Part shown: positions 2,513 to 17,486 of the stretch, piece by piece
How the letters are laid out: every line of letters begins with the position of its first letter
How positions within the stretch are numbered: position 1 is the stretch's first letter
Assembly: GCA_946415755.1 (NCBI GenBank)
Contig: CAMKTS010000005.1
Span: 1 to 64,000, forward strand
Reading direction: 5' to 3'
Source: an uncultured Prevotella sp.
GTDB taxonomy: Bacteria; Bacteroidota; Bacteroidia; Bacteroidales; Bacteroidaceae
DNA: 64,000 bases
Position numbers and translations under genes: made by a program
The notes under the pieces: model-generated
What the model was told of the DNA's origin: nothing
Databases searched by the model: none
Seen by the model: the letters and a program-made list of their open reading frames with translations, nothing else

Positions 2513-3967
2513 TTGCGGCACTTCTGTTTCCACCGTGTTGCCTCTTTTCTCTGCCTCTTCCCGCATGATGCTGTAGGCGCAACCGCGTCAATGAATCAAT
2601 ATGTTTCATTCAATCTTTGTAGAGGCTTAAACACCATAGATGTAGAGAAAGGAAACACTGTTTTTGACTCCCGAGATAATTGCAATGCAATTATTAACAC
2701 AAAAGACAATGAGCTAATTCTAGGAAGTAAAAACACAGTAATCCCTAACAATTTGACGTCGATTGGTAATCATGCTTTCTATGGCTGCAGCGGCTTAACC
2801 TCCATCACCATTCCTAACAGCGTGACATCCATCGGACAGCATGCTTTCTATGGCTGTAGCGGCTTAACCTCTGTGACCATCCCCAACAGTGTGACATCCA
2901 TTGGCGATTATGTTTTCTATGGCGGCTGTAGCGGCTTAACCTCTGTGACCATCCCCAACAGCGTGACATCCATCGGCAAATCCGCTTTCAATGGCTGTAG
3001 CGGCTTAACCTCCATTACCATCCCCAACAGCGTGACATCAATTGGCGCTTTGGCTTTCAATGGCTGTAGAGGCTTAACCTCCGTAACCATTGGCAACGGA
3101 GTGACTAAAATTGGGTCTCAGGCATTCCAGGATTGCAACCGTCTTCAAAAGGTAATAGTTCCTGATATTACAGTTTGGTGCGGAATCACCTTTGATGACG
3201 ATGATGCGAATCCTTTGTATTATGCTCATCATTTGTATAGTAATGAAGACACTGAAATCACAGAACTCACTATTCCAGAAGGTGTGACATCTATCTGCAA
3301 TAATGCTTTCTTGGGCTGTAGCGGCTTAACCTCCGTGAGCATCGGCAACAGCGTGACATCAATCGAAGATGAGGCTTTCAGAGGCTGCAGCGGCTTAACC
3401 TCCGTAACCATCCCTAATAGCGTGACTTTAATCCGTCCTAATGCCTTCAGAGGCTGCAGAGGCTTAACCTACGTCAGCATTGGTAGCAGTGTAAAAAGAA
3501 TTGGTATGTATACGTTTTATAGTTGTTCAAATCTATCTGATGTTTACTGCTATGCTGATAATGTGCCAGAAGCTCAGGTCGCTTTCGATTTCTCTATTAT
3601 AAAGAATGTCACGCTACATGTTCCCACTGCTTCTATTGATGCTTATAAGGCAATGGGACCTTGGAGTTACTTCAAAGCTATTGTGGCCATAATGGATCCG
3701 TTTGTAGGCATCACCAAGGGTGATGCCAACGGCGACGGCACTGTGGACGTAGCTGACGTGGTGGCTATCGTGAATAAGATTCTGGAGAAGCCTGGTGATA
3801 ACTTTGATGAAAAAGCTGCCGACGTGAATGGCGACGGAGTGATAGATGTCAGTGACGTGGTAGCTGTGGTGAACATCATATTGAAAGACGGCAGTGCGAA
3901 CAGCCCAGAAGCGCAGGCTCGTGTACGAGCCTACCTCAAGAGTCACGGCTTCATCGTAAAAGAATAA
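2513..3967 (+). CDS. BspA-like LRR protein with dockerin-like tail, N-terminus damaged
   Basis: The 484-residue ORF carries about eight 23-residue BspA/TpLRR repeats (CSGLTSVTIPNSVTSIG type) between residues 75 and 345. A LRR_5-type closing segment follows (YCYADNVPEAQ...VPTASIDAYK). Residues 402-458 are a dockerin-like pair of EF-hand loops (GDANGDGTVDVADVV, DVNGDGVIDVSDVV). Such proteins are secreted or surface-bound in Prevotella and relatives. This one lacks a convincing signal peptide. The track start is TTG at 2513, the first in-frame ATG is 2591, and an ATG at 2503 is in another frame and stops after 21 codons. The repeat motif begins abruptly (IDVEKGNTVF), so I infer 5' loss. One repeat has an extra Gly codon (FYGGCSG). 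It may be a pseudogene. Confidence 0.7.
   Translation: MRHFCFHRVASFLCLFPHDAVGATASMNQYVSFNLCRGLNTIDVEKGNTVFDSRDNCNAIINTKDNELILGSKNTVIPNNLTSIGNHAFYGCSGLTSITIPNSVTSIGQHAFYGCSGLTSVTIPNSVTSIGDYVFYGGCSGLTSVTIPNSVTSIGKSAFNGCSGLTSITIPNSVTSIGALAFNGCRGLTSVTIGNGVTKIGSQAFQDCNRLQKVIVPDITVWCGITFDDDDANPLYYAHHLYSNEDTEITELTIPEGVTSICNNAFLGCSGLTSVSIGNSVTSIEDEAFRGCSGLTSVTIPNSVTLIRPNAFRGCRGLTYVSIGSSVKRIGMYTFYSCSNLSDVYCYADNVPEAQVAFDFSIIKNVTLHVPTASIDAYKAMGPWSYFKAIVAIMDPFVGITKGDANGDGTVDVADVVAIVNKILEKPGDNFDEKAADVNGDGVIDVSDVVAVVNIILKDGSANSPEAQARVRAYLKSHGFIVKE
2749..3480 (+). repeat. 69-bp LRR-coding tandem repeats
   Basis: Tandem units of about 69 bp encode the 23-residue LRR. All share GGCTGTAGCGGCTTAACCTC or a close variant. 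Two blocks (about 2770-3110 and 3300-3480) are separated by a diverged spacer. Near-identity between units makes the array prone to recombination. Confidence 0.85.
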
Positions 3968-4093: not shown

Positions 4094-4843
4094 CTACTTT
4101 TTCTCCTCATCGCACTCGTGGGGCTTGGGAACGACGGCGTTGATGCCCATCTTCTGGATTTCCTCCAGCAGCTTCTCGGCACTTACCTCTTCCTTGAAGT
4201 AGGTGACGGCCAGTGACTTGCGCTTCGCGTTGGCGTTGACATCCTCCACACCGTCCAGGGCCAGTATGCCGTCGAGCGTCTCCTGGGTGGCCTGCTCGGC
4301 AGGGATGTTGTAGTATGCCCATGCTATCTTGTCGCTGGTGTAGTAGTTGACGGGTGTGTAGCCTATCTTGTTGAGCAGGGCACGGATGTCAGCCTTGCAG
4401 GTGCGGTTGGCATCGTAGCGGATAAACATGTAGTGCTTGTCAAGATGGGGAGCCAGCGAGTCGATGCCCTCCATCTTGCCCAGACGCTCCATGATGCGGT
4501 CGGAGCATTTCTTGCAGTGCATGTCGTCGATGCGCTGGCCATAGCCTCTGCGGATGACATCGGTGGGACTGTATGCCGAAGCCTTGTAGCGACCGGTGGC
4601 TGCCAACCGTGCATTGATAGTGTCGGTACAGGTCTTGGCAGGGTCGTAGGCGATGGTGGCCGTGCGGCGCTCCAGGTTGAACTGGATGCCTCCCACACCG
4701 TCAATCTTCCGCAGGGCGGTCTTTACTTTGTGGGCGCACTCCTCGCAGCGCATACCCTTGATACGTACGGTCAGCGTGTCGCTGGCCTGTGCCGCGCCAC
4801 TGCACATGGCAGCGAGCAGCAAAGATAGAATCAGTTTCTTCAT
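4094..4843 (-). CDS. Periplasmic triple HMA-domain protein
   Basis: This secreted protein of about 249 residues has a signal peptide (MKKLILSLLLAAMCSGAAQAS) and three ferredoxin-like HMA folds. Domain 1 (about 25-95) has GMRCEEC and domain 2 (about 100-170) has DDMHCKKC, both CxxC metal-binding loops. Domain 3 (about 170-240) keeps the fold pattern but has no cysteines where the loop should be. HMA domains bind Cu(I) or other soft metals. A free-standing periplasmic triplet is unusual compared with P-type ATPases or small chaperones. The ATG at 4843 is preferred over the TTG at 4849 because it begins the n-region of the signal peptide. It is the last gene of the minus-strand run, 37 bp after the dockerin protein, which suggests a metal-related role for the operon (inference). 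Confidence 0.88.
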   Translation of the reverse strand: MKKLILSLLLAAMCSGAAQASDTLTVRIKGMRCEECAHKVKTALRKIDGVGGIQFNLERRTATIAYDPAKTCTDTINARLAATGRYKASAYSPTDVIRRGYGQRIDDMHCKKCSDRIMERLGKMEGIDSLAPHLDKHYMFIRYDANRTCKADIRALLNKIGYTPVNYYTSDKIAWAYYNIPAEQATQETLDGILALDGVEDVNANAKRKSLAVTYFKEEVSAEKLLEEIQKMGINAVVPKPHECDEEKK

Positions 4844-4880
4844 TCTCAATTTTTAATTTTTCATTTTTAATTTTCAATTT

Positions 4881-6083
4881 TCAATTCTTCAGGATGATAT
4901 TAACCACTGCCACCACGTCACCGACATCGATATTGCCGTCGCCATTCACGTCGGCAGCCTTCTCGTTGAAGTTGGCCGACGGCTTCTCGAGAATCTTGTT
5001 GACGATGGCCACCACGTCCGACACGTCGACCGTACCGTCGCCATTGGCATCGCCGACCATCACCGTGCCAGCACTATGGTTCTCAAAGTCCTCAATCTTC
5101 TTGCCTGCCCACGTGATCCACTTCTTGTCGGCGGTCTCCCACGCGTAGTTGCCGCCGAAGTGGGTATCGTTGTTGTTCACTTCCAGATAGATCTCATCTT
5201 TGGAGTCGAGGATGACGGTGCTGTTGTCATCGCTGTTGCGCTCGAAGCCGGTTTGGCTGCCGTTGCAAACAAAGCGGAACCACCATCGCTCATCTTTGTT
5301 TTTGGCGGTGCCGACATTCGTCCCGGCCTGTGTGCCACCTTTTAGTCCGTTGCTGTTGATTTGCTCGTAGTAGTCGGCACTCAGCACGAAGTCGTAGCTG
5401 CCGTCATAGGCCAGCAGCACCAGGGCAGTGCTCTTATTGATGACGTAGTCTTTCTCGGCACCGTCGTATTCTCCATAGTTAATGGATGCGCCCTTCGCCT
5501 TAGTATAATTAGAGTTGACGCGCGAGGCCACCATCTCCTTGGGAAGCAGATAAGAGGCTGGGAAGTGGAAGCCGCGCATGCCGTTCTTGATCTCTACCTT
5601 GAGGGCACCGTGCAGCTCACCAATCGAGAAGTGGTTGCCGCTGACCACGTCTTTCTCATAGTCTGTTGCGTACTGTGGATAGGTTGAGTTGCCGTGAGGA
5701 TGGCCTGTGGTGCCATAGTTGACGGAGAGGAGCAGGTCTTTTGTATTCGTCAGGTCGCTCATGTTCAGATCGCTCAGTATCTGGTAGCTATAGGCTACGA
5801 AGGTGTCTGTGGCATCGCCGAAGAGGGCCGCCATGTGCCTGACGGTCTTGCCGTTGCCATCCTCAGTGTCGGCATTATCGGTCTTCGTGCCGTCCTCGCC
5901 CAGTCCTTTCAGGTCGGCCTTCACCCATACGGTGTTCCCTGAGGCAGCCAGTGCCTCCTTCTGTGCGTTCAGCTCGCCGACGGTGTATGGATTTGCTTTC
6001 GTGCCGTCACCGGCCATCGCGTTGCTGCTCAACAGCATACCGGCACATACGGCCAGCATCTTGATTGTCGTAATCGTCTTCAT
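4881..6083 (-). CDS. Secreted DUF6359-like protein with dockerin-like tail
   Basis: This 400-residue protein has a signal peptide (MKTITTIKMLAVCAGMLLSSNAMA). Its N-terminal region (GTKANPYTVGELNAQ...NTVWVKADLKG) resembles DUF6359/OB-like domains of Bacteroidota secreted proteins. The middle region (about 130-335) I do not recognise. Residues about 342-400 are a dockerin-like double EF-hand module almost identical to those of the LRR proteins in this window. The short upstream and downstream spacers are A-rich tandem repeats (AAAATTAAAAATT on the coding strand) typical of this genome. The position suggests cotranscription with the TonB-receptor operon, but the 57-bp gap leaves room for a separate promoter. 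Confidence 0.8.
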   Translation of the reverse strand: MKTITTIKMLAVCAGMLLSSNAMAGDGTKANPYTVGELNAQKEALAASGNTVWVKADLKGLGEDGTKTDNADTEDGNGKTVRHMAALFGDATDTFVAYSYQILSDLNMSDLTNTKDLLLSVNYGTTGHPHGNSTYPQYATDYEKDVVSGNHFSIGELHGALKVEIKNGMRGFHFPASYLLPKEMVASRVNSNYTKAKGASINYGEYDGAEKDYVINKSTALVLLAYDGSYDFVLSADYYEQINSNGLKGGTQAGTNVGTAKNKDERWWFRFVCNGSQTGFERNSDDNSTVILDSKDEIYLEVNNNDTHFGGNYAWETADKKWITWAGKKIEDFENHSAGTVMVGDANGDGTVDVSDVVAIVNKILEKPSANFNEKAADVNGDGNIDVGDVVAVVNIILKN

Positions 6084-6139
6084 CCTTAATTTTTAATTCT
6101 TAATTTTTAATTTTTAATTTTCATTTTTCATCATCTTCT

Positions 6140-7684
6140 TCAGAAGTACATCCCAATGCTCATTCCTGCACAGCGGCCGTTGAGGCTGTTGTTGGTGCGC
6201 AGGTAGCTGCCATAGAGCTTGGCAAACCACAGGGTGCGTACCTTCTTGATGACCACTGGCAGCTGGTAGGCCACTTCCAGCCGTCCCTGCCAGTAGTTGG
6301 CACGATAATACTCCATATCAGGGAGCAGCACGTTGCAGGCATAGTCGCCAGTGGGGTCTGACAGCTGGAGGTCGGCCTGGTGGCTGATGTGGAAGTTGAT
6401 GTCGGCCTTTGCCCATAGTCGCTTTTTCAGGAATCCATAGCCGCCCTCCAAGCCGATGAGCGAGCTGCTGTATTTCAGCTGTGAGGTACGCAGCAGGTGC
6501 TTGTTCGACACCGTCTGCAGGGTATAGCTCATGCCAGCGTATGCTGCCACAGCGTCGTCGTCGGTCACCGTCAGCCGGTAGTGGATGTTCAGGTCGGTCT
6601 TCTTCAGCTGGTAGCGCTTCTCGTAGGTCATCTTGGTCTGCCAGTAGGTGGTGGTATAGGCTCCGTCGCGCACGGTGATCTGTTCCTGGTTGTACTGATC
6701 GGCATAGCCCTCTTCGTAGCAGGCCTTGATGTCGATGCTGTGCAGCAGCCGTCCGCTGCTGATGCGGTTCTGCGTTGTCAGTGCGTAGCGGTTGGTATAG
6801 TATCGTCCAGGCTCGTATTTGTACTGTCCGTAGGCATATTCCGTTCCGTGGTCGAAGGCCAGTGCCGTGACGCTGTGCCATGTGTTGCCCTTGTAGCCAT
6901 AGCTCAGTTCTCCTCCAAATTCGTGGTTGACGTATTCCCGCTGGTAGGCACTATAGCCGTTCACCGTGCCGCGTGCATATTCCAGTCCCGACATGACATA
7001 GTATTTCAGGTTGGGATTGTTCTGTACGGTGGTAAGTCCTGTCAGCTTCTCCTTGTAGCGGTGGTAGTGTGCCGACAGTCCGATGGTGTGTTGCCGGATG
7101 GAGTAGGTGGCCGATGGCGTCAGCGTATAGTCGGCCAGCCTGATGCGTGAGCGGGGGTCGCGCAGTCGGCTGAGGTCTCCCACCTGATAGCTCAGACTGG
7201 CTCCGTAGTGGAAGTGTCCCAGCTGTACGGTGGCCACCTTGGCCTGCAGCGTGAAGTTCTGGAAGTCGTAGCTGCCGAATACGGAGCTGCCCGAGATGAA
7301 GGGGTTGGCATTGTATGTGCGCAGCACGTCGCTCCATGCCCGCTGTTTGATGCGCCCCATGTCGAAGTCGAACGAGCCGTAGCCGTAGAGCCACTTGCCG
7401 ATCTTCTGATAGCGTTCTGTGAAGAAGCGCAGCTGGTTGGTCTGGTTGCCCTCCTGCACGCGGTGGTAGTCGCCGCTTTGGTGTCGCAGGTCGAAGAATG
7501 CCACGCCACGGTTGACTGCCGAGTCCTGGATCTCCATGTCGAGGGCGATGCCTGCCGCATTCTGGCTGTTGCGCCACAGTGCCTGCTCATCGGCCAGCTG
7601 GTATTTCTCCTGTGTGATATCTTGCGCCATAGCAGACAGGCTACCTACGGCGATGAAGGTGCATGCGATGATTCTTAGTTTCAT
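6140..7684 (-). CDS. DUF6850 family outer-membrane beta-barrel protein
   Basis: A product of about 514 residues with a signal peptide (MKLRIIACTFIAVGSLSAMAQ). Alternating amphipathic strands rich in Tyr, Arg and Gly run to a C-terminal aromatic residue (GMSIGMYF), as outer-membrane barrels do. The ORF track starts at 7723, but ATG 7684 overlaps the stop of the DUF4876 gene by 4 bp (ATGA), indicating translational coupling. The TonB receptor, DUF4876 and DUF6850 order is a recurring Bacteroidota arrangement, to my knowledge without a settled substrate. Uptake of a metal complex or other nutrient is plausible (inference). Confidence 0.85.
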   Translation of the reverse strand: MKLRIIACTFIAVGSLSAMAQDITQEKYQLADEQALWRNSQNAAGIALDMEIQDSAVNRGVAFFDLRHQSGDYHRVQEGNQTNQLRFFTERYQKIGKWLYGYGSFDFDMGRIKQRAWSDVLRTYNANPFISGSSVFGSYDFQNFTLQAKVATVQLGHFHYGASLSYQVGDLSRLRDPRSRIRLADYTLTPSATYSIRQHTIGLSAHYHRYKEKLTGLTTVQNNPNLKYYVMSGLEYARGTVNGYSAYQREYVNHEFGGELSYGYKGNTWHSVTALAFDHGTEYAYGQYKYEPGRYYTNRYALTTQNRISSGRLLHSIDIKACYEEGYADQYNQEQITVRDGAYTTTYWQTKMTYEKRYQLKKTDLNIHYRLTVTDDDAVAAYAGMSYTLQTVSNKHLLRTSQLKYSSSLIGLEGGYGFLKKRLWAKADINFHISHQADLQLSDPTGDYACNVLLPDMEYYRANYWQGRLEVAYQLPVVIKKVRTLWFAKLYGSYLRTNNSLNGRCAGMSIGMYF

Positions 7685-8892
7685 GGTTCCAAGTATTCTC
7701 TGGGGTTGATGTTGTCGTTGCATACGAAGTCGTTGGTAGAGTTGTTGGTGTCCTGCAGCACCTTGCGACCGTCGCTGGTGATGGATGCCGTCTTGCGAAC
7801 CAGTCGCTCGCCCGTCGTTCCCGTCGTACTTTCCACGTTGGTATAGCCGGCATCAATGTCTTGGAACAGTCGTTTGCTGTTGATGTCCACGCCCGTCTGT
7901 GCCTTGTTCTTCAGGATGTCCACGCCGTCGAGCACGTAGGAGGCAGGCATCGCCAGAAAGAGGGTGCCGCTGGTCTTTCCGTCGGCATAGACGGTGGGCC
8001 AGCTGGTCACATCCTCACCCGTTCTGAAGATGACCAGCGAGGAAGGTCCTCCCTGTGTGATGTTCATGTTTGAGACGTTTGACATATTGGTGTAAACCTG
8101 AAGCAGGGCAGGCACGTTCTCGTTGTTGGGCACCTTCTTGTTGATGTCTTTCGCCTCGAAGTCGGCCCCTGTCAGGTCGCGCTCGTAGTCGTTCTGTGTC
8201 GAGTGGTTGGTGGCACTGTTCACCAGTAGCAGCGTACCTCCCGGAGCCACGATGACGGGTGTGGTCTCTGGTATGCGGAACACCTGCTTCAGGTGTAGTA
8301 TGCCCGGTGTGGCAGCCTGTTCGTAGGGGTACACCTGGTAAGCGATGGTGCTGTTGCTCTCCAGCAGTCCGATGTAGAGTCCTGCGGCGTCTACCTCCTC
8401 GTCGCTGTTGTTGTACAGCTCGATATACTTTCCCGCGGAGTAGGCCGTATTGCCTCGGCTGTTGGAGGGGTAAACCTTTCCGATGATGAGCGACTGCTTG
8501 AGGAATACCGTCAGCGGCAGGCTGACGTGGGTGTCGTGCGACATGGTCTGCTGGTTCAGCGTACCCGTCAGTGTGAAGTGCTGCTTGCTGTCGGGTGTCA
8601 TCCCCGTGTATGCCTTGTATTGCTCGGCTGTCAGTTCTGTGGCCACGCTGATGTCGTAGACGTCGGGTGCCAGGTCGCTGAACACGGCCTTTCCGCTGGC
8701 ATCCGTCACAGCCGTTGCCGTCTCTGTTTCCGACTGTAGGGTGACGGTCATTCCCGCCATGTCGTTCATGTTGCTGAATCCGTCAGGTGCCAGCAGCTGT
8801 ATGGTGGCCGTAACGGGTTGTGTGGTGTCGTTCATATCCATGCAGCCCGTCAGCAGGCAGATGGTGGTGAACAATAGGAATATCTTCTTCAT
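7681..8892 (-). CDS. DUF4876 domain lipoprotein
   Basis: This 403-residue lipoprotein has a signal peptide and lipobox (CLLTGC, lipidated Cys about 17). An N-terminal carboxypeptidase-regulatory-like beta-sandwich (about 25-125: GMTVTLQSETETATAVTDASGKAVFSDL) is followed by a lamin-tail-like DUF4876 region with KYIELYNNSDEEVDAAGLYIG at about 170-195. It sits 9 bp after the TonB receptor and overlaps the DUF6850 gene by 4 bp. By analogy with SusD-like and other TonB-receptor partner lipoproteins it probably helps capture the ligand at the outer membrane (inference). Family membership rests on motif recognition. Confidence 0.87.
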   Translation of the reverse strand: MKKIFLLFTTICLLTGCMDMNDTTQPVTATIQLLAPDGFSNMNDMAGMTVTLQSETETATAVTDASGKAVFSDLAPDVYDISVATELTAEQYKAYTGMTPDSKQHFTLTGTLNQQTMSHDTHVSLPLTVFLKQSLIIGKVYPSNSRGNTAYSAGKYIELYNNSDEEVDAAGLYIGLLESNSTIAYQVYPYEQAATPGILHLKQVFRIPETTPVIVAPGGTLLLVNSATNHSTQNDYERDLTGADFEAKDINKKVPNNENVPALLQVYTNMSNVSNMNITQGGPSSLVIFRTGEDVTSWPTVYADGKTSGTLFLAMPASYVLDGVDILKNKAQTGVDINSKRLFQDIDAGYTNVESTTGTTGERLVRKTASITSDGRKVLQDTNNSTNDFVCNDNINPREYLEP

Positions 8893-8901
8893 AGCGTTGT
8901 G

Positions 8902-11643
8902 TTATAAGTTAAAGAACAGTTCCACGCCGAACGAGAAGCTGCTGGTGTTGCGCTGTGTCAGCGTACCGCTGGTGCTGCTGCTCATAAACGGCTCGTAGTA
9001 CAATACGTTGTTGGCATAGAACGACAGGCCAGCAAACTTGCCGAACTCCTTGGTCAGTCGTGCCGAGAGGTTCCACGTGATGGGTTCTTTCACAGGGTCG
9101 TTGTCGTTGGGTCTGCGCTTCTGTGCCTCCACGTCGATGCCCACGTTGGTGGCAGTAGGTGACCACTTTCCCTGGTTGTCTATCCAGATGGTGGTCATAT
9201 CGGGTGCGATGCGGTGCCACTGCAGGTCGGTGGTGATGAATGCATAGGGGTCTTTCGGTGCCGTATAGCTATAGGTCGAGCTGTGCCAGATGACCTGTCC
9301 TGTGAACGATGCCACCATGCGCAGTGCCGGTATGTTGGTGACGAGTCTGAGCGTATTGACGAATCGTCGGCTGCGGCTGTAGTCCAGTCCGCTGGGGAAT
9401 ACCAGTTTGATGGGTGTTGTCTTCGACGTATAGGGTGTTGGCAGACTTTCCGGATTGGCGGTGTTCAGACCCTCCGACCAGCTCTTGCTTTCCTGCCATG
9501 CTCCTGAGAAGTATATCGATGTGTTGAGGGGCTTGATGCGTCCGAGGTCGCAGTCGAACTCCACGCCACGGTTTTGCAGCACGTTGTCGTTGCCCACCAG
9601 TCCTGTCGTTGTCCAGTAGATGCTGGGCACGTTGGCTGCTGTTCGCTGCTCCCAGTCGGCCACGCTGGCATACTGCAGCGACTCGTAGGTGACGGGCCAG
9701 AGGTCGCTGCTGAATCCGTTGGGTGTACGGTCTTGGTAGGCGGTGATGCTCAGTTTGCGGTTGCCGGGCAGCTTGACATCAAGTCCTGCCTCTATCTTCG
9801 TGGTGGTGGCGTTCTTCAGGTTTCGCGAGTATTCCACCTGCTGTACGTAGGTGTGTACCACCACACGGCTCTGTGGGTAGAGCGTTGGGCTGGTATTGCC
9901 GTTGGCATACGATGCCAGAGCGATGTGGTCGTTATAGTTGTTGTCAGGATAGAGGTAGTTCAGTCCTGGTGTCTTCGAGTTAAGTCCGATGCCTCCTCTG
10001 ATGTTCAGCCACTTGGTGACTTCGAGTGTGAGGTTCAGTCGTGGCGAGAGGGCAAAGGTGCGTATGTCGCTGAAGGGCTGCATGGCAGTGAAGCGCGCTC
10101 CGGCCATCACGCGCAGGTGACGGCCCTTGGCATATTCCCAGCTGAGGTTGTCTTCCAGGTAGGCGGCTATCTGGTGCAGTCCCGGCACATCGCTGAATGC
10201 CCTGGGGCGACCGTTCTCGTTGGGTTGCAAGGGCAGTTGGTCGTCGGCGTTGTAGTAGCCCTTTCCGCTGTTCCAGTCGTAGTGGTAGTCGATGCCCATC
10301 TTGAATCGCTGGTTGACCTTTTTGCTTTTCAGGAAGAAGGCGTTGCTCACCTTTGCGAAGAGGTTGCCCGGCCGGCTTTCAGTATGTCCTGTAGCCTGGT
10401 ATTCCTTATCGAGCCAGGGTACCTCGTAGTACCCCGTCTGGCGTGCCGTGATGAGGTGTACCACCTTGTTGCTGGTGGGCACGAATTTGGTCTGGCTGTT
10501 GTCGATGGCTGTGAGCGACAGTCCTACGGTATAATTAATGGTACGCGAGAAGAGCCGGTCGACGCTGATTTTTCCATTATGTGTCAGCGAGAACTGCCGG
10601 TTGCTGTTCTTCGTCTCGTTGCCGTCTTGCTGTGCGTCGGGGTCATTGCCGTTCCAGTCTCTGGCATACAGGTAGCGCACCTTCGTGTCGGTATGCCAGC
10701 GTCTGGTGATGTCTATGCCGTAGCCTACCGACATGGTCAGTCGGTGGAACGAGCGTGTCTTCTCCCTGGGGTCTCCCCACGCCTGTGCATAGTCGGCGTT
10801 GAAGTTCAGCACGCCGTAGCGGTTCATCCTCAGTCCCTTTCCCAGCGAGTAGTTCATCAGTCCGGGGTTCACCTTTCCCTTGATTTGCCAGGGGGTGACG
10901 CCAATCTTCGAGCGTACCACCATGAGTCCGCTGGTCAGGTCGCCGTATTCTGCCGATGGGATGCCTCTTATCACCTCCACCTCGTCGATGTCGTCGGCCG
11001 AGAAGTTTCTGAGGTCCGTGCCGGTGAATGCCGTTGCCGAGAAGCTGCCCTGGTCTACGTTGCCATTGTTCGATACGGGCATGCCGTCGAGTATGACGCT
11101 CGATCCGAATGCCGCCGTGTTGTTGTTGGTCAGCGTGCGTATCTGCAGGTTCGACTGTGCCGTCAGGTCGGTGTTGGTCATCAGGTTGCCGGGTATGAGC
11201 TGCATGATGTCGGCGAGGCTTGATGCCTGCAGGTGGTCGATGGCCTGTCGGCCGATGATGCTGCTGGTGGCTGCTCCGCTGGCGTTCTGCTTGGCGGTGA
11301 CGTGTACCTCTCTTAGTGCGAGTGTGGTGGGTGTCAGCTGGCATTTCATGTGCAGCGGTTTGCTCACCCTGACCTGTGTGGTCTGCGGCTCATAGCCCAC
11401 GTAGGTGATCTGCAGCTGGTAGTTGCCTGCCGCTACGTTGCGCAGCGTGGCGTGTCCGTCGGCATTGGTGACGGCAATGATGCCTGCCGGCTGCAGCTGT
11501 ACGGTGGCCATGATGATGGGTTCCCGCGTGTCGCGGTCGGTCACCAGTACGTCGACGGTGTAGGCGGTGTGTGTGTCCTGCTGGGCGTGCATTGCTGTCG
11601 CCATGCAGATAAGTGCTGTCAATAGGTTTAGTCTGAATCTCAT
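8902..11643 (-). CDS. TonB-dependent outer-membrane receptor
   Basis: A receptor of about 913 residues with a signal peptide (MRFRLNLLTALICMATAMHAQ). A CarboxypepD_reg-like domain (about 25-105) is followed by a plug domain (about 115-230: SLADIMQLIPG...NFSADDIDEVEVIRGIPSAEYGD) and a 22-strand-type barrel ending in FGVELFFNL. No SusD homologue follows, so this is not a glycan SusCD pair. The partners are the DUF4876 lipoprotein and DUF6850 barrel. The start is ATG 11643, not the track start at 11850, because it begins the signal peptide and overlaps the DUF4435 stop (ATGA). That overlap puts receptor expression under the promoter of the ATPase/DUF4435 pair. Confidence 0.95.
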   Translation of the reverse strand: MRFRLNLLTALICMATAMHAQQDTHTAYTVDVLVTDRDTREPIIMATVQLQPAGIIAVTNADGHATLRNVAAGNYQLQITYVGYEPQTTQVRVSKPLHMKCQLTPTTLALREVHVTAKQNASGAATSSIIGRQAIDHLQASSLADIMQLIPGNLMTNTDLTAQSNLQIRTLTNNNTAAFGSSVILDGMPVSNNGNVDQGSFSATAFTGTDLRNFSADDIDEVEVIRGIPSAEYGDLTSGLMVVRSKIGVTPWQIKGKVNPGLMNYSLGKGLRMNRYGVLNFNADYAQAWGDPREKTRSFHRLTMSVGYGIDITRRWHTDTKVRYLYARDWNGNDPDAQQDGNETKNSNRQFSLTHNGKISVDRLFSRTINYTVGLSLTAIDNSQTKFVPTSNKVVHLITARQTGYYEVPWLDKEYQATGHTESRPGNLFAKVSNAFFLKSKKVNQRFKMGIDYHYDWNSGKGYYNADDQLPLQPNENGRPRAFSDVPGLHQIAAYLEDNLSWEYAKGRHLRVMAGARFTAMQPFSDIRTFALSPRLNLTLEVTKWLNIRGGIGLNSKTPGLNYLYPDNNYNDHIALASYANGNTSPTLYPQSRVVVHTYVQQVEYSRNLKNATTTKIEAGLDVKLPGNRKLSITAYQDRTPNGFSSDLWPVTYESLQYASVADWEQRTAANVPSIYWTTTGLVGNDNVLQNRGVEFDCDLGRIKPLNTSIYFSGAWQESKSWSEGLNTANPESLPTPYTSKTTPIKLVFPSGLDYSRSRRFVNTLRLVTNIPALRMVASFTGQVIWHSSTYSYTAPKDPYAFITTDLQWHRIAPDMTTIWIDNQGKWSPTATNVGIDVEAQKRRPNDNDPVKEPITWNLSARLTKEFGKFAGLSFYANNVLYYEPFMSSSTSGTLTQRNTSSFSFGVELFFNL

Positions 11644-12683
11644 TGCTGATGTAGTGTGTTGAGTCGTTCGTTCAGGTCGGCTGTTATTCTCTTGAAGGGT
11701 TCCGACTCCGTAAATGCGGTATTTTTTCTCAGTGTCTGTTTGATGTCCTGTTGCGAGTGTTCGTAGCACGCCATCTCGTTGCTTTTCTGCATGAAGTGTC
11801 GTGCCGTGCGTTCTATCTCCTGCTCTCGCTCCTGCCTCAGTTTGTTGCATACCTTGTTGAGGATGGGCACTACGACGTTGTCGAACAGCGAGTGGCCTTG
11901 AATGTACAGGTAGGCGGCACGTGCCGTGATGCCCAATGCGCGCAGGTCGTTCTTGGTCTTGAGATACTCATCCTTGTTGTTGGGAAATTCGGCCTGCAGC
12001 TGTTTCACCTTGGTATTCACCTTGTGTCGCAGGTGGTCGATGGATGTCTGCGGGTTCTCCAGGTTGAAGTTGCCAGGGTCGATGATGCGGTTCATGTCGA
12101 CGAGCGAGAACTTGTTGTGGCATCCCTTGCGGTAGGCCCATACCGACCAGGTGAGCAGTGGCGAGATGGCCTCGCTGTACTGGCTGAGGTAGTCTTCGAA
12201 GTCGAAGATGCGGTGGTCGTTCAGCGTGACGGCAACGCAGACGTCGTGCAGCGATGGTGCGTAGCATTGCATATTCTCGATGGCGTAGGCGTAGGTATGA
12301 AAGACGTAGGGGCTGTCGAGCACCATTCTCGACTGTTCCGTAGCCCTCTGCAGCAAGTAGTCGTAGTCGGCATCCACGCAGGCTATCATCGACGGCCCCA
12401 GCCTGTCGCCGCCGTCAGACTTCTCCCCTTTGGCGGACGGGAGAGGATTCAGGAAGTTCAGCAGCACGGCTTTCTTTCCTCTGTCCAGCTTCTTGTGCGA
12501 AGGCAGCATCACCTCGAAGTAGCGTGTCTCGTTCTCGAACTGTCTGAGCACGGTACGCCAGAAGAAGATGTCGTCGTAGCTCTCCACGTATGCCACGATG
12601 CGCCTTCTGGCCTGTTTGCTCTTCAGTGCATTCGCCGCCTCGAAGTATCTGCTGTTGAGATTATCCTTCAGCTGCTTCCCCAT
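11640..12683 (-). CDS. DUF4435 TOPRIM-like protein (AriB-like)
   Basis: This 347-residue DUF4435 protein has TOPRIM-type acidic motifs: YVESYDDIFFW (Glu about 33), ACVDADYDYLL (DxD about 102-104) and AYAIENMQCYA. DUF4435 is the nuclease (AriB) of the PARIS anti-phage system, where it works with an AAA ATPase (AriA). Here the ATPase gene ends 11 bp upstream, matching that layout. A short palindromic insertion (residues about 80-88, PLPSAKGEKSDGG) sits between the first two motifs without breaking the frame. The stop overlaps the TonB receptor start. A defence role is inferred from family and context. A housekeeping role linked to the transport operon remains possible. Confidence 0.85.
   Translation of the reverse strand: MGKQLKDNLNSRYFEAANALKSKQARRRIVAYVESYDDIFFWRTVLRQFENETRYFEVMLPSHKKLDRGKKAVLLNFLNPLPSAKGEKSDGGDRLGPSMIACVDADYDYLLQRATEQSRMVLDSPYVFHTYAYAIENMQCYAPSLHDVCVAVTLNDHRIFDFEDYLSQYSEAISPLLTWSVWAYRKGCHNKFSLVDMNRIIDPGNFNLENPQTSIDHLRHKVNTKVKQLQAEFPNNKDEYLKTKNDLRALGITARAAYLYIQGHSLFDNVVVPILNKVCNKLRQEREQEIERTARHFMQKSNEMACYEHSQQDIKQTLRKNTAFTESEPFKRITADLNERLNTLHQQ
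12420..12446. repeat. In-frame palindromic insertion in the DUF4435 gene
   Basis: CTTCTCCCC...GGGAGAG forms an imperfect hairpin of low-complexity sequence unlike the flanking codons. It encodes a Pro/Lys/Gly-rich loop (PLPSAKGEK). A related GGGGAG palindrome lies in the adhesin gene near 62040-62078. Confidence 0.5.
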
Positions 12684-12693
12684 TCCTCATTAC

Positions 12694-13515
12694 TCATTTC
12701 TCATTCCTCATTTCGACAGTGATGTCGCTCACTTCCGTCACGTGGTCGGCCCATCCGTTCATGATGACGGCAGGCGAGTGCGTGGTCAGTATCACCTGCA
12801 CGTTGGGGTTCAGCTCGGTGATGAGGTCTATCAGGCGCTTTTGCCATTCGATGTGCAGGCTCACCTCCGGCTCGTCCATGAAGAGCACGTGGGGCAGCTG
12901 GTTCTGCACGAGCACCGTGAGCAGTATCACCAGCATCTGCTTCTCTCCCGAACTGAGTTGGTAGGGCACCAGTGTCTCCCCCATCTGCGAGAACCGTATC
13001 TCGTTCTCCGTGCGTATCATCTTCTTTCCCGTGTCGTCGAACAGCTCGTCCACCATGTCCTGGAACCTCGTCTTGGCCTGCGACAGCTGCTGCGCAGCAT
13101 TGGCGTTGCCCTTTTGCAGTTCGGCGATGATGCGGTTGCCGATGTTCACCTGGTAGTCCAGGTATTTGCGTTGCAGGTGGTACAGCTCGAAGTCAAGTGC
13201 CGATGTGATGCGCGAGTCTACGAGGCTCATGGTGTCAGCGTCGAGCATGGGTGAGTCGAGCGAGCGTATGATGTCGAACCTCACGTGTGTGGCATCCTCC
13301 GGTTCTGCCGTGATGTGTACTCCCTTGAGCAGGTGGTTGATCAGGTCGCCGTTGGTGTTGATGCTCTTAAACACCTTGTTCAGGATGGTCGACTTTCCCA
13401 CCCCGTTGATGCCGCTGAGTATGTTTACGTGTGCATCCAGCGTCCATACGATGTGTTTCTTGCCGCTCCACAGTGCGTCAATCTCTATCTTCTTGATGTA
13501 GTCTGCATACTTCAT
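12694..13515 (-). CDS. AAA/ABC-type ATPase (AriA-like)
   Basis: This 273-residue cytoplasmic ATPase of the AAA_15/AAA_21 (RecF/OLD-like) class has Walker A INGVGKST at about 36-43, an ABC signature LSSGEKQML at about 187-195, Walker B VLFMDEP at about 210-216 and an H-loop TTHSPAVI at about 246-253. A short helical insertion (about 125-165) replaces the long coiled coil of SMC-like members, so it is compact but complete. It is followed after 10 bp by the DUF4435 protein, the gene pair seen in PARIS. Expression starts from a canonical promoter at 13538-13569. The ATG at 13515 gives the natural N-terminus with the beta-strand IEIDALWSGKK. Confidence 0.88.
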   Translation of the reverse strand: MKYADYIKKIEIDALWSGKKHIVWTLDAHVNILSGINGVGKSTILNKVFKSINTNGDLINHLLKGVHITAEPEDATHVRFDIIRSLDSPMLDADTMSLVDSRITSALDFELYHLQRKYLDYQVNIGNRIIAELQKGNANAAQQLSQAKTRFQDMVDELFDDTGKKMIRTENEIRFSQMGETLVPYQLSSGEKQMLVILLTVLVQNQLPHVLFMDEPEVSLHIEWQKRLIDLITELNPNVQVILTTHSPAVIMNGWADHVTEVSDITVEMRNEK

Positions 13516-13537
13516 GGTGCTCTGCTGTTTTGGGCTA

Positions 13538-13569
13538 CAAAGTTACTGATTCTTGAGCGAAAAACCAAA
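13538..13569 (-). promoter_or_regulatory. Promoter of the PARIS-like / TonB operon
   Basis: On the minus strand TTTG (13566-13569) precedes TAACTTTG (13538-13545) by 20 nt, a canonical Bacteroidota sigma-ABfr promoter. It lies about 23 bp upstream of the ATPase ATG. No comparable promoter is possible before the TonB receptor because its start overlaps the previous gene. Confidence 0.7.
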
Positions 13570-13602
13570 TATAATTGAGTGTTTTTACTTTCAAGTTTTT
13601 TG

Positions 13603-13965
13603 CTAATATCCCAACATGGCAGCTGGTGTTATTCCTAAAGTGGCACAAAGCAGACGGGCTATCTTCAGCGTAGGTTCTGCCCTACCTGAAACATAGTCGC
13701 TTATGCGTGAAGGACTGACACCAATCTCTGTAGCCAATTGTTTCTGGCTCATCTTCTTCTCATCCAGAGAAAGCTGTATCAGCTGGGCTACAGTAGGTTT
13801 TCCAATGGGATAGTACACCTTCTCGTAGTCTATTACGACATTCGACATCATTGTCAACTCTACCGCATTACGGTCGTTGGAAGGTGTGTTGTCATCCACC
13901 ATCGGCAACAGTTCTTCTATCCGTGCCAATGCAAATTCATATTGCTCTTTTGTAATCTTTGCCAT
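13603..13965 (-). CDS. higA: HigA-type antitoxin (XRE helix-turn-helix)
   Basis: This 120-residue protein has a HigA-like N-terminal extension and an XRE helix-turn-helix at about 65-110 (MSQKQLATEIGVSPSRISDYVSG). It follows the HigB toxin by 18 bp, giving the toxin-first order characteristic of higBA modules. HigA neutralises HigB and usually represses the operon through its HTH. It sits next to other accessory genes in the 11.6-18 kb zone. Confidence 0.92.
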   Translation of the reverse strand: MAKITKEQYEFALARIEELLPMVDDNTPSNDRNAVELTMMSNVVIDYEKVYYPIGKPTVAQLIQLSLDEKKMSQKQLATEIGVSPSRISDYVSGRAEPTLKIARLLCATLGITPAAMLGY

Positions 13966-13983
13966 ATTCGTACCTCCTTATAT

Positions 13984-14283
13984 TTATATCGTTGAAACGT
14001 CAATCTTGTCGTATTCACTATGAGTGCCCACAAATCGGATGAAGATATGTCCGATTGTGAACTTTACAACCACAACTAGACGATATTTGTTGCCCCTGAT
14101 GTCAAAGACATAATGTTGGTTCCCAACGTAGTCTGTCGATGGGAAGTCAGCCTTTATATCCGACAGGTTCTTCCACTCTGCCTTTTCTGCAATGTCATAC
14201 CATCGTTCAAGTGCAGCTTGAGCGTCTCCATGTCCTTTCGAACTATAGAACTCAACTAATCGTCTATGTGACACTATTCTCAT
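13984..14283 (-). CDS. higB: HigB-type mRNA interferase toxin
   Basis: A 99-residue RelE-superfamily HigB toxin with the family signature ADFPSTDYVGNQHYVFDIRGNKYRLVV and the C-terminal FIRFVGTHSEYDKID. HigB toxins cleave mRNA on the ribosome. The gene starts the higBA operon behind a canonical promoter at 14292-14321. Confidence 0.93.
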   Translation of the reverse strand: MRIVSHRRLVEFYSSKGHGDAQAALERWYDIAEKAEWKNLSDIKADFPSTDYVGNQHYVFDIRGNKYRLVVVVKFTIGHIFIRFVGTHSEYDKIDVSTI

Positions 14284-16316: not shown

Positions 16317-16466
16317 TAGCTGTAGCTATTTCTCCTTAAATTTCATGTCCCGTTTCCCTTCAGAGGGGGGGGCATGTTTTCTTTTGGGCACTATTACCCC
16401 TTGTGTGTTAATTTTCTCTGTAATTCCTTTGGGAGTTGCGGAGTTTTTTGTAATTTTGCCGTCGTA

Positions 16467-17486
16467 ATGAAACGTGAAGTTTACGAGAGCCAGAAGGCCT
16501 TTGCGGGCGAGAAGAAGCCCTCGATGCAGCGACGCTGTGTAGGTCACGACTACACGGAGCGCATGATGTATATGGTGACGATGGTGACCGAAGGCCGCCG
16601 TCCGCTCTTCGGGCAGGTGGTGGGAAACAGCGAAGAGCCTGAAGGCAGTCCTGATGCCCCACGCATAGTGCTAACGGAGCTGGGGCAGCGGGTGAGCGAT
16701 GAGTGGTGGGGCATTCCCCGTTATTACCCGCAGGTAGAAATCAAGGCTCTGCAGATGATGCCCGACCACTTGCATGGCATCATCTTTGTCAGAGAAGTGA
16801 TGGAGAAAGACCTCAGCCGCATCATTCGTGGTTTTAAGACCGGCTGCAATCACCATTACCGCGAGCTTTTCCCCTCCGTTCCGTATGTTGCGACTCAGTC
16901 GCAACAAACAGGACATTACGACCGCACCCACGGTCTTCTTTTTGCCCCGGGTTTCAACGACAAGCTGCTCCTGCGCCAGGGCCAGCTACAGCGATGGCTC
17001 GACTACCTGCGCGACAACCCGCGCCGTCTCCTGATGAAGCGCGAACATCCCGACCTCTTCCGCGTACAGCGAGGCCTCGTGGTGGCAGGCCGGCAGTTCT
17101 CTGCCATTGGCAACCGCTTCCTACTGCAACGTCCCGTGCGCCTGCAGGTGCAGTGCTCGCGCCGCCTCACCGATGAGGAGATAGCCGAGAAACAGGCGTG
17201 GTGGCTACAGCAGGCCCGCAGCGGTGCCGTGCTCGTCTCTCCCTGCATCTCCAAGGGCGAGAAACAGGTGATGCGCGCCGCCTTCAATGAGGATCTTCCG
17301 CTCATTGTACTTCAGGAGAACGGCTTTACTGACCTTGCCAAGCCCGGCGGTCAGCGCATGGAGGCCTGCGCCTGCGGCCAGCTGCTCCTACTTGCTCCCT
17401 GGGAGCACCATAATGAGCACCTCGCCATCCGTCGCGACCAGTGCCTAGCCCTGAACGACATGGCAAGAATAATTTGTGAAAGATAA
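16467..17486 (+). CDS. Y1 (HUH) transposase-like protein with DprA-like C-terminal domain
   Basis: A protein of about 339 residues. The N-terminal half matches the Y1/IS200-like REP-associated tyrosine transposase (RAYT) group: MMPDHLHGIIFV at about 93-104 holds the HUH-type HxH, and LQRWLDYLRDNPRRLL near 175-190 holds the Tyr of the catalytic helix. The C-terminal third (about 250-330: GAVLVSPCISKGEKQVMRAAF...LPLIVL) resembles the Rossmann-type nucleotide-binding fold of DprA/LOG proteins, which is not part of a normal RAYT. ATG 16467 is chosen because upstream codons are T-rich leader. RAYTs are usually single-copy host-domesticated genes near REP palindromes, and hairpins and repeats flank this one. 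Its action at these repeats is inference. Confidence 0.75.
   Translation: MKREVYESQKAFAGEKKPSMQRRCVGHDYTERMMYMVTMVTEGRRPLFGQVVGNSEEPEGSPDAPRIVLTELGQRVSDEWWGIPRYYPQVEIKALQMMPDHLHGIIFVREVMEKDLSRIIRGFKTGCNHHYRELFPSVPYVATQSQQTGHYDRTHGLLFAPGFNDKLLLRQGQLQRWLDYLRDNPRRLLMKREHPDLFRVQRGLVVAGRQFSAIGNRFLLQRPVRLQVQCSRRLTDEEIAEKQAWWLQQARSGAVLVSPCISKGEKQVMRAAFNEDLPLIVLQENGFTDLAKPGGQRMEACACGQLLLLAPWEHHNEHLAIRRDQCLALNDMARIICER

Follow-up and report, generated by a model that had tools for sequence, protein, structure and literature searches.

A compact PARIS-type ATPase and Toprim nuclease pair is a vertically inherited core chromosomal locus of the Bacteroidaceae

The window analyzed here, a stretch of 64,000 nucleotides on contig 5 of the genome of an uncultured Prevotella sp. 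(G000; Bacteroidaceae; genome 81% complete), carries a run of five genes on its minus strand, encoding in order an ATPase, a DUF4435 protein, a TonB-dependent receptor, a DUF4876 protein, and a DUF6850 protein. These genes and their order had been given by an original prediction, and all five were found where it had placed them. The first two, here called ariA and ariB after the two components of the PARIS defense system, are the main subject of this study. The ariA gene (12694..13515, minus strand) encodes a compact ABC/AAA_21 ATPase of 273 amino acids that matched Pfam AAA_21 (E value 3.8e-20, 73.6 bits), AAA_15 (62.2 bits), and, over the full length of the model, the PADLOC AriA profile PDLC04164 (E value 1.1e-57). 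Its Walker A (GINGVGKST), signature (LSSGEKQ), Walker B (LFMDEPE), and switch (THSP) motifs were all present. The ariB gene (11640..12683, minus strand) encodes a protein of 347 amino acids, by homology a DUF4435 Toprim nuclease, that matched PF14491 (DUF4435; E value 2.5e-54, 185 bits) and the PADLOC AriB profile PDLC02983 (E value 1.3e-62). It carries the E34 and D104-A-D106 motifs, and its predicted catalytic acids are E34, D38, D104, D106, and E136.

The published detection rule for PARIS asks for an AAA_15 or AAA_21 ATPase (thresholds of 32 and 27 bits, respectively) next to a DUF4435 protein (27 bits) (PMC9122126), and the two adjacent genes of the window exceeded all of these values. 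Predicted structures were in line with this assignment. The AlphaFold models of AriA and AriB had predicted local distance difference test (pLDDT) scores of 86 and 82, and the best PDB matches of the AriA model were PARIS AriA structures (8v45, E value 1.9e-12), with Septu and retron PtuA close behind; the AriA profile matched PARIS 8ux9_B with an E value of 4.3e-20. For AriB, a sequence search against solved structures gave no significant match, and a plain Foldseek search with the model gave none under 0.001. Comparison of the AriB model by VIA ranked PARIS AriB first (8v46_D and 8ux9_A, Z scores of 9.6 and 9.5; 236 residues aligned to 8v46_D), the next unrelated entry scoring 5.4, although a Z score of 9.6 is itself moderate. 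In this superposition, E34 corresponds to the catalytic E26 of Escherichia coli AriB, as read from the aligned ranges (model residue 25 to chain residue 17) rather than from a residue alignment. The proposed membership of the pair in the AriA-AriB fold family was thus borne out, for AriA by sequence and predicted fold and for AriB by PADLOC profile and predicted fold.

The known part of this locus is therefore a PARIS-type (class 4 OLD) ATPase-Toprim pair with a compact AriA variant. With PARIS of the E. coli B185 type (PDB 8ux9 and 8v45-8v49) it shares the gene order, the combination of an ABC ATPase with a Toprim nuclease, and intact ATPase and Toprim residues. The AriB of E. coli is held by AriA and, once released or activated, cuts tRNA-Lys together with certain other tRNAs (PMC11455837, PMC12409363). 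The E. coli AriA is longer, having 464 amino acids and a large insert, while the protein of the window is shorter by approximately 180 residues between the ATPase halves; trigger sensing, if there is any, thus likely differs. As the compact AriA model of PADLOC (253 positions) was matched, the short AriA represents a variant still within the PARIS membership. The same PADLOC models describe other compact pairs (PDLC04164/PDLC04165), in which a compact AriA directly precedes AriB. A Col plasmid of Klebsiella pneumoniae of 4.4 kb (NZ_CP141665.1, L259:1-1948) carries one of these as its principal cargo, a very small mobile PARIS-like unit made up of a 325-amino-acid AriA and an AriB. Unlike this plasmid-borne pair, whose AriB has approximately 22% identity, the pair of the Bacteroidaceae belongs to a separate clade.

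Using the AriB of the window as a query, we found AriB in 285 of 301 Bacteroidaceae genomes, including 161 of the 168 high-quality ones, and in 28 of 30 genera, nearly always as a single copy. AriA was encoded directly upstream of AriB in every Bacteroidaceae locus examined. The hsdR gene of type I restriction, taken for comparison, scored above the cutoff in only 83 of 201 Bacteroidaceae genomes and was often multicopy; for ariAB, an occurrence of 5.2% among prokaryotic genomes has been published (PMC9122126). Outside the family, the Bacteroidaceae AriB profile matched 16 of 244 Bacteroidales genomes and 1 of 293 genomes in a sample of the phylum. This single genome (G969, L152; AriB, 302 bits) belongs to another class; its pair may have been transferred or may descend from an older branch. 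AriB was missing from six Bacteroidaceae genomes of 96% completeness or more, all of which were also without AriA, and four of the six formed one clade in the rpoB tree. Loss of ariAB in the family is thus rare, joint, and clade-wise.

This distribution differs from that of E. coli-type PARIS, which is rare and mobile. No match to AriB was found in phage records. Bacteroidales plasmids gave two matches, one unannotated and the other annotated but resembling a chromosomal contig (meaB, alpha-2-macroglobulin). The genes around AriAB, named by eye from the sequence of 20 regions, looked like ordinary transport and metabolic genes. With no phage match, unconvincing plasmid matches, and variable neighbors, we rejected a mobile element or defense island as the setting of the locus. 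A literature search, with subscription journals and preprints outside its scope, found neither DUF4435 nor PARIS described as core to the Bacteroidales.

The phylogenies also indicated descent with the host. In 26 genomes from 12 genera, the AriB and rpoB trees had 17 of 23 splits in common and a distance correlation of 0.80, while the AriA tree agreed with that of rpoB in 13 splits and with that of AriB in 18. When compact pairs of other families, of another class, and of Klebsiella were included, the AriA and AriB proteins of the Bacteroidaceae each formed one clade, with an SH-like approximate likelihood ratio test (SH-aLRT) support of 98. Median omega among close Prevotella pairs was 0.13 for both genes, a value showing purifying selection. 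Across genera, E34, D38, D104, D106, and E136 of AriB were invariant, as were the ATPase motifs of AriA. The ariA-ariB pair thus predates the radiation of the Bacteroidaceae and has been inherited vertically as a core chromosomal pair.

A core PARIS-type pair could still be an immune system. In the main rival explanation, which we consider possible without favoring it, an ancestral abortive-infection pair was made permanent by an ever-present trigger and works as in E. coli, AriA sensing a phage protein and AriB, thereby released or activated, cleaving tRNA. Homology to AriA and AriB over their full lengths, agreement with the published detection rule, joint retention and joint loss within the Bacteroidaceae, and the fast evolution of AriB relative to rpoB all agree with such fixed immunity. 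In addition, a PARIS call made by DefenseFinder in Bacteroides thetaiotaomicron jmh43 is transcribed (PMC12135933) and possibly represents the same locus. Near-universal, single-copy, vertical occurrence outside any phage or island context argues against it, as do the residues missing between the ATPase halves of AriA and, above all, the fate of the pair in a second Bacteroidales family.

In this family (f113), AriB was found in 75 of 81 genomes, in all 47 high-quality genomes, and in 21 of 22 genera. AriA was found in 26 of the 81 genomes and in 11 of the 47 high-quality ones, one of these 11 (E value 3.9e-14) being probably a generic ATPase. In g347 and g353, AriA lay at another locus, approximately 153 kb from AriB in the case of G1007. 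When the three states of AriA (adjacent, at another locus, or gone) were placed on the AriB tree, they required the minimum possible number of changes: a single unlinking and a single loss of AriA, with AriB kept in some ten AriA-free genera. The five catalytic acids were intact in 18 of 18 AriB proteins from AriA-free members, and the one such member tested still scored as AriB/DUF4435. One would expect a PARIS toxin deprived of its keeper to disappear or to lose its activity, yet intact AriB has been kept through approximately ten genera, pointing to a role outside abortive infection. This retention of a catalytically intact AriB after a single loss of AriA is our chief reason for preferring a nondefense reading.

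The same history bears on a further alternative, an addiction unit in which AriB is the toxin and AriA the antitoxin, the pair being kept by postsegregational killing and not by any benefit. AriA has been described as an antitoxin sequestering AriB (PMC11455837), and joint loss in the Bacteroidaceae would agree with addiction. However, f113 shows the opposite of what addiction predicts, in that AriB remained after AriA had first been unlinked and later lost, and deletion of ariA was reported to be nontoxic in E. coli (PMC9122126). We consider this explanation improbable.

In two genomes, one each of g347 and g353 (L324:1374-7070 and L326:1906-7034), AriB lies on the same strand behind ybeY, mnmG, and an acyltransferase-like gene. 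YbeY is an rRNA maturation RNase, and MnmG takes part in the modification of tRNA U34. The position of AriB behind these two genes is suggestive of a role connected with RNA.

The explanation that we favor, with a probability of roughly 0.55, is that the ATPase and Toprim nuclease are a resident pair of the PARIS type, core and vertically inherited, whose nuclease has a chromosomal and probably RNA-related role. The functional unit would consist of ariA and ariB alone, to the exclusion of the receptor operon. AriB would be a Toprim endonuclease dependent on metal, with tRNA or a different structured RNA as its most likely substrate, and AriA, where present, would bind AriB and use ATP to gate it. 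Such a unit would have a standing chromosomal role, either in processing RNA or in braking translation when triggered by stress, as opposed to the role of a mobile abortive-infection cassette. What is new is the vertical core pair in the Bacteroidaceae and the presence of AriB alone as a core protein in most of f113.

Known enzymes offer parallels for such a role. Cran1 and related OLD-family ATPases of the Sulfolobales resemble the pair as defense-type ATPase-Toprim enzymes that are conserved throughout a lineage and have a role other than defense (PMC12796447), but Cran1 is a single-chain archaeal DNA nickase and essential, whereas the Bacteroidaceae pair consists of two genes and was lost in one clade. 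The catalytic site of E. coli AriB superposes on RNase M5 (PMC12409363). RNase M5 is a housekeeping Toprim enzyme of rRNA maturation with chemistry like that of E. coli AriB, through which the Bacteroidaceae AriB can be likened to it. To our knowledge, RNase M5 has no ATPase partner.

Several points weigh against the resident, RNA-related role that we favor. The rate of evolution of AriB far exceeds that of rpoB (0.44 versus 0.066 for the median end branch), as might that of an arms-race protein. The pair is dispensable in the Bacteroidaceae, as the four-genome clade without it shows, and both genes went together. RNA is the most likely substrate of AriB by analogy with E. coli AriB and RNase M5 only. 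Finally, an unseen ATPase possibly stands in for AriA in the AriA-free genera; at 14 loci of AriA-free genomes, we found no constant neighbor of AriB that could be a substitute partner.

Taken further, the distribution would fit a scenario in which the Bacteroidales possess DUF4435/AriB as a housekeeping Toprim ribonuclease that is core to two or more of their families and for which AriA is an optional regulator; PARIS systems that are mobile would then be weaponized relatives, or else AriB would be a long-tamed PARIS. We put the odds of this broader scenario at about even. If the housekeeping reading is true, PARIS calls in Bacteroides and Prevotella that rest on the ariAB locus misread it as defense. 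The published rule and this locus alone would suffice to make nearly every Bacteroidaceae genome PARIS positive, which would skew counts of defense systems in dominant gut bacteria. Should the pair be a core cellular machine, it would provide an example of abortive-infection and housekeeping nucleases interconverting, and the AriA-free clade offers a natural experiment on a PARIS-type nuclease without its keeper.

The three genes behind ariB in the window form a separate operon. The TonB-dependent receptor gene (8902..11643, minus strand) begins with an ATG that shares a 4-nucleotide ATGA with the stop of the DUF4435 gene. It is followed by the DUF4876 gene (7681..8892, minus strand; E value 2.7e-26), whose stop is overlapped by the start of the DUF6850 gene (6140 to approximately 7684, minus strand; E value 1.2e-87), a start that we placed at the signal peptide of this outer membrane protein. 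At the far end of the run, the window encodes a CopZ-like heavy-metal-associated (HMA) protein (4094-4849, minus strand). Promoters were scored by the Bacteroidetes -7 box, a sigma-70 scan being uninformative for this phylum. Between 6000 and 13600 on the minus strand, the only two TAnnTTTG boxes begin at 13573 and 13545, immediately before the ATPase gene, and none precedes the receptor. The nearer one, TAACTTTG (13538..13545, minus strand), has a TTTG upstream. A -7 box was found before ariA at 47 of 80 Prevotella loci versus 11 of 80 control stretches within ariB. Both couplings, at ATGA and between DUF4876 and DUF6850, and the lone promoter before the ATPase were thus as the original prediction had described them, and the receptor operon behind ariB probably rides on the ariA promoter.

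The ATGA overlap and the single visible promoter could suggest that AriAB and the receptor form one module that either guards a site of phage entry or regulates the uptake of nutrients. Such a functional tie had been proposed for this locus and made dependent on synteny elsewhere. In 150 congeners, the receptor was present in 35 (E value < 1e-150), and at 29 of 29 other receptor loci examined it was followed by DUF4876, often with a detectable DUF6850 next, but at none of these 29 was AriAB adjacent. Conversely, no such receptor was found beside AriAB at 80 named Prevotella loci, in 20 further, larger regions, or in 29 other Bacteroidaceae genomes. In G233, a distance of approximately 440 kb separates AriAB from the receptor, and in G163 the receptor occurs without AriAB. 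As a general module this arrangement is refuted, and we give the idea hardly any credence even for the window. The adjacency is private to this genome and incidental, and the lack of synteny elsewhere indicates a local rearrangement that put the receptor operon behind ariB. A misassembly at the ariB-receptor join is possible, although each of the two genes runs intact to that point. The suggestion that the ATPase-Toprim pair serves a nondefense purpose has thus gained ground as regards a core chromosomal gene and lost it as regards the regulation of nutrient uptake.

As to the receptor operon itself, an HMA protein is encoded directly before the TonB receptor in nine congeners (L097, L099, L106-L108, L110, L113, L115, and L121), a hint of metal or metallophore handling by the TonB-DUF4876-DUF6850 operon. 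Several gaps between genes on the minus strand (approximately 12690-12720, between ariA and ariB; 6084-6140; and 4850-4885) consist of simple repetitive linkers, GAGGAATGAGAAATGAG- and AAAATTAAAAATT-like, which might promote recombination.

Directly upstream of ariA lies a HigB/HigA toxin-antitoxin pair (13603-14283, minus strand) with its own -7 box (14299), which PADLOC scored as the A and B parts of PD-Lambda-2. Since it is missing from 80 of 80 Prevotella AriAB loci, we rejected it as a component of the ariAB system. A few kilobases upstream of the run, an open reading frame on the plus strand (16374-17486) gave a weak match, below the cutoff, to a REP-associated tyrosine transposase (NF047646). 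On the other side of the run, a BspA-type leucine-rich repeat protein (2513-3967, plus strand) and a secreted protein of no known type (4881-6083, minus strand) are mutually unrelated and carry closely similar C-terminal type I dockerins.

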